Assembly (NCBI RefSeq): GCF_000473365.1
Contig: NZ_KI421517.1
Span: 2,257,504 to 2,321,503 of the forward strand
Length of the DNA stretch: 64,000 nt
Source: Adhaeribacter aquaticus DSM 16391
Lineage (GTDB): Bacteria > Bacteroidota > Bacteroidia > Cytophagales > Hymenobacteraceae
Direction: 5' to 3'
Shown here: piece after piece, positions 5,757 to 10,281 of the stretch
How positions within the stretch are numbered: the stretch's first letter is position 1
How the letters are laid out: every line of letters starts with the position of its first letter
The notes under the pieces: generated by a model
Told to the model about the DNA's origin: nothing
The model's database searches: none
What the model saw: the letters and a program-made list of their open reading frames with translations, nothing else
Translations under genes and position numbers: made by a program

Positions 5757-5927
5757 ATGCTAAAGCTCAGCTAAACTTTAGCAGGCTCATTTCAGCATTA
5801 AAAAGAAAATAAACTAAAGATTATTGCCCTTTTATTTAGCATAGGCAATTTTAAAAAGCTAAAATTCAATTATTTATACATAATTAATGCCTGTAATTAA
5901 TTACAGGCATTAAGTGCTTTATTTTGG

Positions 5928-7904
5928 TTATTTTAATTCCAATTTGGCAAGTTCTTCCCGTAAGGCTGCCGCAATACTTTTAGCTTCTTGATTAAAAGCT
6001 TGAATAAGTATATTCACATCAGCCTTGCTATATTCGGGCTCATCTAATATCCTTTTCCCGATATTTATATACTCCAGCAAATTAGTAGCATCTAATAGAT
6101 CAATATCAACTCTCATTTTATGGCCGAGAAAAATGAAGTCCGCTTTTCTTTTATCATTCAGAGTAGCAGCAAACTTATTTTTATACTCTTCCAGATTATC
6201 AATAATTATTTCCGCCAGCTTTCTCGCCTCCCGGTTACTTAAATCCTTCATCTCCTGCAACCTGTTCAAACTAAATGCAGGCTGTTTATTTATAACTGTA
6301 GCGGGGTCAAAAATTGTCAACTTAAGTTTTTCTTTATCCCGTAAAGCACGGCGCTTTTTAGAAGTGTAAAAAGCAATTTTGCTGTGCAACTCTTCTGGTT
6401 TAAAAGGCTTGCCCACAAAGTCGGTAAGACCAGATGATTCCATTTTTTCTACCAGGTCGTATTTGGCAGAAGCCGATAAAGCTATAATAGGTAATTGCTG
6501 GTACTTTATTTCAGGTAAATTACGAATCCAATGAGTGGTATCGTAACCATCCATGCCCGGCATTTGCAAATCCATCAGCACCAAATCAAAATCATGCTGA
6601 TTTATTTTTTCTATAGCTTTTAGGCCCGATTCTGCTACTTCATATTCTATTCCCCAATCTTTAAAATATTGCTCTACCACAAATACATTAATGGGATTAT
6701 CTTCAACTAAAAGTAGTTTAACGCCGGCAATGGATTCATCTGCCTGAATAACAATTTCATCAGAAACGGTTTTATTACCGGTAGCTTTTTTCAGCTTTAA
6801 TATAAAGTTAAATTCTGAACCTTTGCCGGATTCACTTTTTACTTTAATCTTGCTGCCATACAAGCTTACTATTTTCTGGCTGATGGAAAGCCCTAAACCA
6901 GTGCCACCATATTTGGCATGTGTATCAGAAGTCCCCTGGGTAAATTCTTCAAATATAAGTTCCTGCCGTTCTTCCGGAATACCTATGCCGGTATCGGTTA
7001 CTTTAAAAAGAACAGCAACTGCATCTTGTTTAGTACTCTTAACTTGTGCCGCAATTGTAACAGAACCCTTTTCGGTAAATTTAATGGCGTTACCCAACAG
7101 GTTGGTTATTACCTGCCCTATTTTAACGGAATCTCCTAGTAAAAAATCAGGTATACCCTCATCTATTTGTAATTGAAGAGCTAAGCCTTTTTCTTCAGCT
7201 TTTAAGTTATAACTGTAAAGAATACCGGATAATAAATCACGCAGATTAAACTCTTTTTCTTCCAGCGTAACCCGATTTGCTTCTATCTTACTTAAATCCA
7301 GAATATCATTAATGAGGTTTAACAGATTATCTGAAGACTGTTTAAGAATATTTAAATACTCCAGCTGACTTGAGGTTGGATGCGTTTTTAATAACAAATC
7401 GCTAATGCCAATAATAGCATTTAAAGGCGTCCGGATTTCGTGACTAATAGTAGAAATAAATTCTGCTTTAATCTGGGTAGCCTCTTCGGCTTTACGTTTA
7501 GCATGCAGAAGTTCCTGTTCGTATTTTTTACGGTCAGTTATATTAAAAACTGTAGTCCGATACAGAATTGGTTTACCGGCTTCGTCTTTTAATTGGGTGG
7601 TACTTACCAGGACCGGTAAAGGTATCCGCTCCTTAGAAAGCAGATCAAAGTTTATTTCATTAGCAAAACCCTGCATTTTAAGCAGGGGTGCGTAATGTGT
7701 CTCATAGAAAATCTTCCCACCTATGGGTAATAGTTCCTGAAATTTTTTAACGTTAAGTACTTCCGCCCGCTCAAACCCCAACCAGTTTAGCAAAGTATGG
7801 TTAATTTTTACAATAGTACCGTTTGGCAAAAGCGATAAGTAACCACACGGTGCGTGCTCGTATAGGTCCTCGGCGCTTTCCTCTATTACTTCTGTATAAT
7901 CCAA
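5928..7904 (-). CDS. PAS-domain hybrid sensor histidine kinase with receiver and Hpt-like tail
   Basis: A cytoplasmic 658-residue hybrid kinase without membrane segments. In order: PAS domain (about 8-125), HisKA with phosphoacceptor His155 (SHEIRTPLN), HATPase (about 255-372, N box and the GTGLGLS box), receiver with phospho-Asp445 (LVLMDLQMPGMDG), and a helical C-terminus with an Hpt-like FLGHKM (His595). The start is a TTG at 7904, immediately after the TAG of the upstream hydrolase and in the same frame. GAGGAGG lies 8 bases before it, an unusually good Shine-Dalgarno for Bacteroidota. No ATG occurs before the middle of the PAS domain. The pair mirrors RsbQ with its PAS partner RsbP, so the PAS domain probably binds the hydrolase or its product. 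Confidence 0.9.
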   Translation of the reverse strand: MDYTEVIEESAEDLYEHAPCGYLSLLPNGTIVKINHTLLNWLGFERAEVLNVKKFQELLPIGGKIFYETHYAPLLKMQGFANEINFDLLSKERIPLPVLVSTTQLKDEAGKPILYRTTVFNITDRKKYEQELLHAKRKAEEATQIKAEFISTISHEIRTPLNAIIGISDLLLKTHPTSSQLEYLNILKQSSDNLLNLINDILDLSKIEANRVTLEEKEFNLRDLLSGILYSYNLKAEEKGLALQLQIDEGIPDFLLGDSVKIGQVITNLLGNAIKFTEKGSVTIAAQVKSTKQDAVAVLFKVTDTGIGIPEERQELIFEEFTQGTSDTHAKYGGTGLGLSISQKIVSLYGSKIKVKSESGKGSEFNFILKLKKATGNKTVSDEIVIQADESIAGVKLLLVEDNPINVFVVEQYFKDWGIEYEVAESGLKAIEKINQHDFDLVLMDLQMPGMDGYDTTHWIRNLPEIKYQQLPIIALSASAKYDLVEKMESSGLTDFVGKPFKPEELHSKIAFYTSKKRRALRDKEKLKLTIFDPATVINKQPAFSLNRLQEMKDLSNREARKLAEIIIDNLEEYKNKFAATLNDKRKADFIFLGHKMRVDIDLLDATNLLEYINIGKRILDEPEYSKADVNILIQAFNQEAKSIAAALREELAKLELK

Positions 7905-8735
7905 CTAGCTAACCTCCTCAACTTTACTCATGAACAATGTTTGGTTCTGCAGAAATTTCTTTATAGCCTGAATGGTTTCTTCTGGGGCACTTAAGTTGGG
8001 GCAGTGGCCGGTAGCTTCTAAAACCATCATTTCGCTATCCGGCAAATGCTGATGCATATACTCTCCTACCGACATGGGTGCAATAACATCTTCGGAGCAT
8101 TGCAGGATCAAAGACTTGGTTTTTAATTTAGATAAATCGGCTCGGTTGTCAGAGAGAAAAGTAACCCGGGCAAAGTCTTTGGCTATTTCCGGGTTGGTAC
8201 GGCAAAAACTATTAGTTAACTCTTCCCCTAATTCAGGACGGTTTGGATTGCCCATAATAACAGGAGCCATGGCACTTGACCACCCTAAATAATTACTATC
8301 CAGTGATTCCAGTAAACCATCAATATCTTCTGAAGAAAACCCTCCTTCATAATTTCCGTCATTAATATAACGAGGCGAAGGGCCAACTAATACTAATTTA
8401 TCGAATAGGGTAGGCTCTTTAATGGCTGCTAAAACGCCAATCATGGAACTTACCGAGTGGCCCACAAAAATAACATTGGTAAGATCTAACTCCTGGCAAA
8501 TTTCCAGCACATCTTCAGCATAACCTTTCAGGGAATTATACCTGGTTTGGTTATAGGCGGTAATGTCAGATTTGCCAAAACCTACGTGATCAAATAAAAT
8601 TATCTGGTAATCATTTTCGAAGGCAGGCGTAATCAGACGCCACATATTTTGATCGCAACCGTAGCCATGCGCAAAAAGCATGGGCTGCTTTCCTTTACCA
8701 CTAATTGTTACATTATTACGTTTAAGTACATCCAT
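7905..8735 (-). CDS. RsbQ-like alpha/beta hydrolase
   Basis: A 276-residue alpha/beta hydrolase that closely resembles the RsbQ sigma-B regulator of Bacillus. Seen are the oxyanion loop region AHGYGCDQNMW, the nucleophile elbow VGHSVS (Ser94), acid Asp215 (QCSEDVIAP) and His243 (ATGHCPN); the whole chain follows the RsbQ pattern including the lid. RsbQ activates the PAS-domain phosphatase RsbP in the energy-stress pathway. Here the PAS partner is a hybrid histidine kinase encoded directly downstream in the same frame. The C-terminus ends EEVS-TAG, and its last codons form the GAGGAGG ribosome-binding site of the kinase. The substrate cannot be told from sequence. Confidence 0.92.
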   Translation of the reverse strand: MDVLKRNNVTISGKGKQPMLFAHGYGCDQNMWRLITPAFENDYQIILFDHVGFGKSDITAYNQTRYNSLKGYAEDVLEICQELDLTNVIFVGHSVSSMIGVLAAIKEPTLFDKLVLVGPSPRYINDGNYEGGFSSEDIDGLLESLDSNYLGWSSAMAPVIMGNPNRPELGEELTNSFCRTNPEIAKDFARVTFLSDNRADLSKLKTKSLILQCSEDVIAPMSVGEYMHQHLPDSEMMVLEATGHCPNLSAPEETIQAIKKFLQNQTLFMSKVEEVS

Positions 8736-9494: not shown

Positions 9495-9833
9495 ATGAAA
9501 AATTTATTGTTCTTGTTTTGCCTTGTTGGAGCTTTATTATCTTGTAAAAAAGAAACCTCGGAGATTTTTGCAAAGGAAGTTACCTTACGGGTAAACAGTT
9601 ATAGACAAAACTGCCAGGGAGAAGGAGTATTAAACTGCTACTTAGTACAGGATGGAAAAAAAATAGGAACTCAGAATTGGGACCTTTTTTACAATGAAAT
9701 TGAAGGGTTTGATTATGAAGAAGGGTTTATATATGATTTGAAAGTAAGAAAAGAAAATGTCCCTAACCCGCCCGCTGATGGCTCTAGTTTTAAATACAAG
9801 CTTATTAAAATTCTGAATAAACAAAAGGTTTGA
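9495..9833 (+). CDS. DUF4377 lipoprotein
   Basis: A 112-residue lipoprotein with signal and lipobox LLSC (Cys17) directly followed by KKE. The body matches the DUF4377 pattern: CYLVQ, then W, then the acidic turn IEGFDYEEGF, then NPPADGSS near the C-terminus. The family is found alone or attached to META-type domains in heat-shock and stress lipoproteins; its molecular role is not established. It stands alone between two intergenic stretches and would sit at the cell envelope. Confidence 0.8.
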   Translation: MKNLLFLFCLVGALLSCKKETSEIFAKEVTLRVNSYRQNCQGEGVLNCYLVQDGKKIGTQNWDLFYNEIEGFDYEEGFIYDLKVRKENVPNPPADGSSFKYKLIKILNKQKV

Positions 9834-9912
9834 AATTAGAAGCAACAGCGGCCCAACAACCAAAGCTAAATAAATTATATTAGTAACTTTACTACTAACT
9901 AAATTATTAATA

Positions 9913-10281
9913 ATGCCTACTTCCATGCCCGCTACCCTAAGGCCTTTCTACCAATTGGAGCTCGAAGCCTATAGAAAACAGTACGCAACCGGAAACCTAT
10001 ACCAGGCCTGGAACCATCTGGAGAGAGCTCATGTAATTGGCCAGGCGTATCCGGTTGAACACAGCCAGGTGCATGGGCTGATGTTAATATTTGGATTTAA
10101 AACCAAAAATATAAAGGAAACACTTGGGCAAATTCCGAGGCTGCTTTTGGGTGGTATAAAATCTTTTGCCGGGAAAATACCAGTTGGTAATACTGGTGGT
10201 TCCAATATTCCTCCCTTAAAACCCTTGCCCATTCAGGATGATATTAAAGAAATTTTTAGAAAAGCCGGTGTTAATAGGTAA
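9913..10281 (+). CDS. DUF3703 family protein
   Basis: A 122-residue soluble protein with the family features: an N-terminal helix ending in a Tyr/Ala-rich repeat-like segment (YQAWNHLERAHVIGQ), a conserved His-rich turn (EHSQVHGLML), and a Gly-rich stretch (GNTGGSN) before a helical tail. The helix-turn-helix pattern looks like a TPR-type repeat. Members are often found beside metal or transport genes. Function unknown. The ATG at 9913 is the first in frame. Confidence 0.75.
   Translation: MPTSMPATLRPFYQLELEAYRKQYATGNLYQAWNHLERAHVIGQAYPVEHSQVHGLMLIFGFKTKNIKETLGQIPRLLLGGIKSFAGKIPVGNTGGSNIPPLKPLPIQDDIKEIFRKAGVNR

Follow-up and report, generated by a model that had tools for sequence, protein, structure and literature searches.

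Architecture of the Pair and the Described RsbQ-PAS Module

Nadezhdin, Brody, and Price (2011; PMC3183031) described the hydrolase RsbQ and an N-terminal PAS domain of the RsbP type as together forming a bipartite sensing module. In the text of that paper, the RsbQ gene lies immediately upstream of its partner on the same strand, the RsbP-class PAS domain is the most N-terminal one, a helical linker joins it to the output domain, and the outputs comprise phosphatases, kinases or hybrid kinases, and diguanylate cyclases; three of the histidine kinases listed there have a receiver. The same text reports a contact between RsbQ and the PAS domain in Bacillus subtilis, names no ligand, and calls the cue mysterious. 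Judged by titles and the openings of abstracts, no other paper with the RsbQ-PAS module as its subject was found.

The window analyzed here is a stretch of 64,000 nucleotides from Adhaeribacter aquaticus DSM 16391, a member of the Bacteroidota. It contains a two-gene operon that we regard, with high confidence, as a bipartite sensing module of the RsbQ-PAS kind whose output is a phosphorelay. The anatomy of the pair and of its 3′ flank is as follows.

7905–8735, minus strand: RsbQ-family alpha/beta hydrolase, 276 aa, ATG start, TAG stop at 7905–7907, triad Ser94-Asp216-His244
7912–7919, minus strand: Shine-Dalgarno-like site GAGGAGGT within the 3′-terminal part of rsbQ, with GAGGAGG at 7913–7919, eight bases before the TTG
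7902–7907, minus strand: junction TAG/TTG, where the rsbQ stop abuts the kinase start
5928–7904, minus strand: hybrid histidine kinase of 658 aa that begins with TTG at 7902–7904
7509–7904, minus strand: RsbP-class PAS domain and start of the helical linker, residues 1–132, with N35, P73, E83, P97, R125, and E129
6789–7469, minus strand: HisKA and HATPase_c, residues 146–372, phospho-acceptor His155 (Pfam, residue position)
6375–6713, minus strand: receiver domain, residues 398–510, Asp445 (Pfam, residue position)
5931–6350, minus strand: C-terminal region, residues 519–658, predicted Hpt fold with candidate phospho-acceptor His595 (predicted structure)
5884–5913, no strand assigned: inverted repeat of 13 pairs with a loop of 4 after the kinase gene, terminator-like on both strands in a consensus scan

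The order of the genes, the N-terminal position of the PAS domain, the helical linker, and the hybrid kinase all match the module as PMC3183031 presents it. There are also differences: the word Bacteroidetes is absent from the main text of that paper, and the hybrid kinase of the window adds a domain with a predicted Hpt fold.

The hydrolase has both full-length similarity to RsbQ and an intact triad. Its residues 3–263 align with Bacillus RsbQ (1wom) at E 3.1e-99, which bears out the first-pass annotation of a strongly RsbQ-like protein. That annotation was also right about Ser94 and the integrity of the triad, but its Asp215 and His243 are off by one and should read Asp216 and His244. The matches that follow 1wom are two other bacterial hydrolases and then the plant receptors KAI2/D14, which are homologous hydrolases (E 1e-49 to 9e-62). 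The partners and ligands of these receptors differ from those of RsbQ. The RsbQP pair of B. subtilis resembles the window in having a hydrolase with the same triad (by alignment) and a PAS partner, but its output is a PPM phosphatase in the sigma-B pathway (PMC3183031). The genome of A. aquaticus (5.17 Mb, 4 contigs) has a single clear RsbQ, further matches being at E 9.4e-7 or weaker.

A Pfam scan of the kinase identified PAS_9, HisKA, HATPase_c, and Response_reg, and the defining elements of a hybrid kinase (HisKA histidine, HATPase domain, and receiver aspartate) are present. A PDB search with the PAS domain alone gave nothing useful. The C-terminal 140 residues matched no Pfam model at E 0.01. 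An AlphaFold model of this region, built on an alignment of 15 relatives, is a helical bundle (pLDDT 83.8, pTM 0.77) whose closest PDB folds are Hpt domains (3myf, E 0.014; HptB 7c1i, TM 0.78 by target length), with no PDB structure match under E 0.001. The modeled fold supports the assignment of the C terminus as an Hpt domain. The order PAS-HisKA-HATPase-receiver-Hpt read initially from the sequence is retained, four domains by Pfam and a candidate Hpt, with the candidate His595, by predicted fold. In a different reading, the Hpt at the C terminus is dead, the receiver is a brake, and the output is a separate step from HisKA to a regulator. The lack of a Pfam Hpt match and the loss of the candidate histidine in 5 of the 15 aligned hybrids (four myxobacterial ones and Pontibacter litorisediminis) are in its favor, but we consider it rather unlikely, as the histidine is retained in the other ten (the window and nine more hybrids) and the predicted fold is that of an Hpt.

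The inverted repeat lies between the convergent genes for the kinase and a peptidyl-tRNA hydrolase and is possibly a bidirectional terminator, the region having 10 terminator-like sites versus 3.1 ± 1.9 in shuffles. On the 5′ side of the pair, a DUF4377 gene lies on the plus strand (9495–9833), with an antisense frame of 94 aa at 9642–9926. In a comparison with six neighborhoods (L224–L227, L229, and L036), no window gene between 1 and 16000 had a meaningful match except the pair itself; in L226 the match was just another kinase, 35% identical, some 4 kb away.

Junction of the Two Genes

The two frames are separate, adjacent, and in phase, with one TAG between them. This codon had been given a special meaning, as all that stands between the pair and a 935-residue fusion of RsbQ and kinase, and the question had been raised whether relatives carry a fused version. 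For such a fusion to be ancestral or functional, the TAG would have to stem from an error in sequencing or from a recent nonsense mutation, or else be read through. The shared phase of the two frames, with nothing but the TAG between them, fits this, and 17 other relatives are likewise in phase. However, the RsbQ frame continues into its partner in none of 197 distinct RsbQ genes, the length of which, from match start to stop, is 258–287 aa (258–276 aa in the PAS-linked set). The phase of the junction varies among the 126 loci with a PAS partner: it is +2 in 67, +1 in 41, and 0 in 18, the in-phase junctions thus making up under one third. The TTG and its strong Shine-Dalgarno-like site, placed exactly after the stop, also count against a fusion, as does the commonness of TAG, which ends 8 of 39 open reading frames surveyed in the window and is hence ordinary there. 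At the 126 PAS loci the rsbQ stop is TGA in 67, TAG in 34, and TAA in 25. Because junction phases vary and no frame runs on, in-phase adjacency simply results from how tightly the genes are packed and is no scar. A fusion, whether hidden by an error in the TAG or achieved by reading through it, is rejected on the basis of the 197 relatives, and we give an ancestral or functional fusion almost no credence. Judging from these relatives, the single TAG is an ordinary gene boundary and not a broken fusion; the special meaning attached to it does not survive the comparison, and the relatives keep the genes separate.

The closest relative among the matches listed, Pontibacter chinhatensis LP51 (L036), has an RsbQ 77% identical to that of the window and a kinase of the same architecture, 53% identical to the window's over residues 2–621. 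Its genes are also adjacent, in phase, and separate, but its junction reads TAA-aac-ATG and lacks a Shine-Dalgarno-like site.

Before residue 26 of the kinase, the TTG is the only ATG, GTG, or TTG codon in frame (codon 7 is ATA), and the conserved part of the PAS domain starts at about residue 14. The combination of a TTG start and a GAGGAGG eight bases upstream had been noted as unusual, and this was confirmed: the kinase is alone in having a 7-base match to the anti-Shine-Dalgarno sequence among 39 open reading frames, chosen from the 46 of at least 150 aa in the window, and 31 of the 39 have no match of 4 bases or more. Of the 68 PAS partners from Bacteroidota that were compared, only the kinase of the window has a match of 6 or more; starts were picked mechanically in this comparison, so the counts of TTG in it are unreliable.

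Partners of RsbQ in Other Genomes

Of 390 genomes belonging to the order, at least 114 have an RsbQ at E ≤ 1e-40; of 395 genomes drawn from the phylum, 22 have one at E ≤ 1e-60. The set of 197 distinct genes derives from 213 tblastn matches, each of which includes a stop codon; 16 of them were collapsed as the same gene. These genes are best matches and not a random sample: one source was the best 80 of at least 576 confirmed matches, and the other consisted of 30 loci from the order search, among the matches listed, with 100 fetched regions, some of them longer copies of those loci. The Ser-Asp-His triad is invariant in all 197. Directly downstream of these best matches there is an RsbP-class PAS protein in 126 cases, a small SpoIIAA-like protein in 25, and neither in 46; a six-frame search of the available flanks (E ≤ 1e-6) detected no RsbP-class PAS domain beside the last. 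Among the 159 RsbQ genes at least 55% identical to that of the window, the numbers are 124, 25, and 10. As 71 of the 197 genes have no such PAS domain alongside, RsbQ need not signal through one.

Domains were scanned in 90 of the 126 PAS partners, the rest being incomplete, near-copies, or dropped for size. HATPase_c is present in 71, HisKA in 68, a receiver in 23, and a SpoIIE phosphatase domain in 13, in agreement with the association of RsbQ with PAS kinases that had been anticipated for other genomes. Linkage of RsbQ to a PAS partner is observed in Bacteroidota, Pseudomonadota, Actinomycetota, Myxococcota, Chloroflexota, Acidobacteriota, and others. Distances between RsbQ proteins correlate with those between their PAS domains (Mantel r 0.78, with none of 500 shuffles as high), which partly reflects shared ancestry.

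The 126 linked PAS domains share a class signature. Four residues, N35, P73, R125, and E129, never vary; position 66 holds an aromatic residue or His in every domain, and 117 have His or Tyr at position 70; E83 is found in 124, P97 in 115, and C20 in 114. All six of N35, P73, E83, P97, R125, and E129 occur together in 113. The PAS domain of the window has the nine class positions C20, L23, L59, K64, F66, H70, P73, E83, and P97, equivalent, in the same order and by our own numbering, to C10, L13, L48, Q53, F55, Y59, P62, E72, and P86 of RsbP. Most of the nine show strong conservation in the set of 126, with L23 present in 65 only. The position of RsbP C56 is occupied by Tyr67 in the window, and Tyr is the residue most often found at that position (73 of 126). 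The linked PAS domains in the text of PMC3183031 have no DIT motif; the PAS domain of the window ends in NIT, and of the 126, 5 have NIT and 28 end in DIT. Hence, the statement that DIT is absent fails in the larger set, and lack of the motif is not a defining trait of the wider class.

These data bear on whether RsbQ might be mainly a metabolic esterase that lies beside the kinase by chance and makes no direct contact with it. RsbQ does belong to a large hydrolase superfamily, and 46 of the 197 relatives have neither partner; yet the linkage recurs across the phyla named above, and PMC3183031 describes the PAS signature as specific to the linked class and reports the contact in B. subtilis. 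We regard a chance neighbor as very unlikely and retain the sensing module.

Residue 148 of RsbQ (window 8292–8294) is Asn in all 126 PAS-linked proteins, and is Asp in 19 of the 25 linked to the SpoIIAA-like protein and in 32 of the 46 unpartnered ones. From this pattern, Asn148 is a possible contact residue. As a position separating linked from unlinked RsbQ it was set aside, since the only 3 independent pairs on supported branches prevent the test from reaching significance.

The small SpoIIAA-like protein (112–164 aa) takes the place of the PAS kinase in its 25 loci, all from the family of the window.

L041:5849–6286, L042:5865–6269, and 23 further loci: SpoIIAA-like genes, sub-threshold PF11964

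In all 25, the gene lies 13–104 nt downstream of RsbQ on the same strand. Thirteen loci come from named Hymenobacteraceae and 12 from the family or genus of the window, the membership of these 12 being established through loci common to both sets (L009 with L042, and L010 with L045). Pfam gave nothing beyond the sub-threshold PF11964, an NCBIfam scan gave nothing, and a PDB profile search gave chance-level matches, mostly to antibodies. In a tree of RsbQ made from 122 of the 197 genes, with a long-branch warning for L203, the 25 loci form one group whose own branch is weak (support 7), and they share a branch of support 90 in this quick tree with the RsbQ of the window and one Cytophagales sequence. 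By tree path, the nearest to the RsbQ of the window is the PAS-hybrid locus of P. chinhatensis, followed by the small-protein loci. At E ≤ 1e-30, SpoIIAA-like copies occur in 42 of 100 family genomes. Eighteen of the 42 were compared, by hand matching, with the order-wide RsbQ search: 16 have their best copy next to RsbQ, one of the other two (G315) has a copy and no RsbQ, and the last is the genome of the window, the copy of which lies elsewhere. This genome has ten copies, none adjoining its RsbQ; SpoIIAA-like proteins are thus an expanded family, and linkage alone is no proof. We tentatively propose, at somewhat less than even odds, that a single Hymenobacteraceae clade of RsbQ has two alternative partners, the PAS hybrid kinase or a SpoIIAA-like protein that possibly has a STAS fold. 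RsbV is a STAS protein of the Bacillus pathway. If the proposal is true, the RsbQ sensor can drive a partner devoid of PAS, a fourth kind of output that echoes RsbV. In two genus mates (loci L229:6648–8764, L158, and L159), a second SpoIIAA-like copy is followed by a second RsbQ and then by a PAS protein of 213 aa, in which HisKA matches below threshold and a HATPase domain is missing.

Proposed Signaling and Its Place in the Family

In the proposed mechanism, RsbQ would bind or hydrolyze a small molecule in its Ser-Asp-His pocket and contact the RsbP-class PAS domain at the N terminus of the kinase, and the helical linker would relay the resulting change to the HisKA/HATPase core. His155 would then pass phosphate to Asp445, from which it would reach His595 and, finally, a response regulator whose gene lies elsewhere. 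On this view, rsbQ ends naturally at the TAG, and translation of the kinase would begin with the TTG next to it, probably through coupled re-initiation that the GAGGAGG assists. We infer the contact-dependent signaling and the requirement for the triad by analogy with the work on B. subtilis reported in PMC3183031; the order of the phosphorelay, the translational coupling, and the location of the regulator elsewhere we only infer. A single-chain AlphaFold model of the read-through RsbQ-PAS sequence has pLDDT 91 and pTM 0.71 and comes with no inter-domain error or interface measure; with these values, the RsbQ-PAS interface it suggests was set aside.

Homology, the signature of the PAS domain, and the recurrence of the linkage in many genomes sustain the initial proposal that RsbQ and PAS are here wired to a phosphorelay and not to a phosphatase, and this wiring is already part of the module as PMC3183031 presents it. 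The ligand chemistry may be the same as that of RsbQ-RsbP.

In conclusion, the locus is a genuine and well-formed case of a sensing module already known, distinguished by its unusual start site and by an output that is slightly richer. It adds to the module described in 2011 an example from the Bacteroidota with what appears to be a full internal phosphorelay. The comparison of 126 PAS-linked with 71 unlinked RsbQ proteins suggests contact residues, and several near relatives of the RsbQ of the window adjoin a different small protein.
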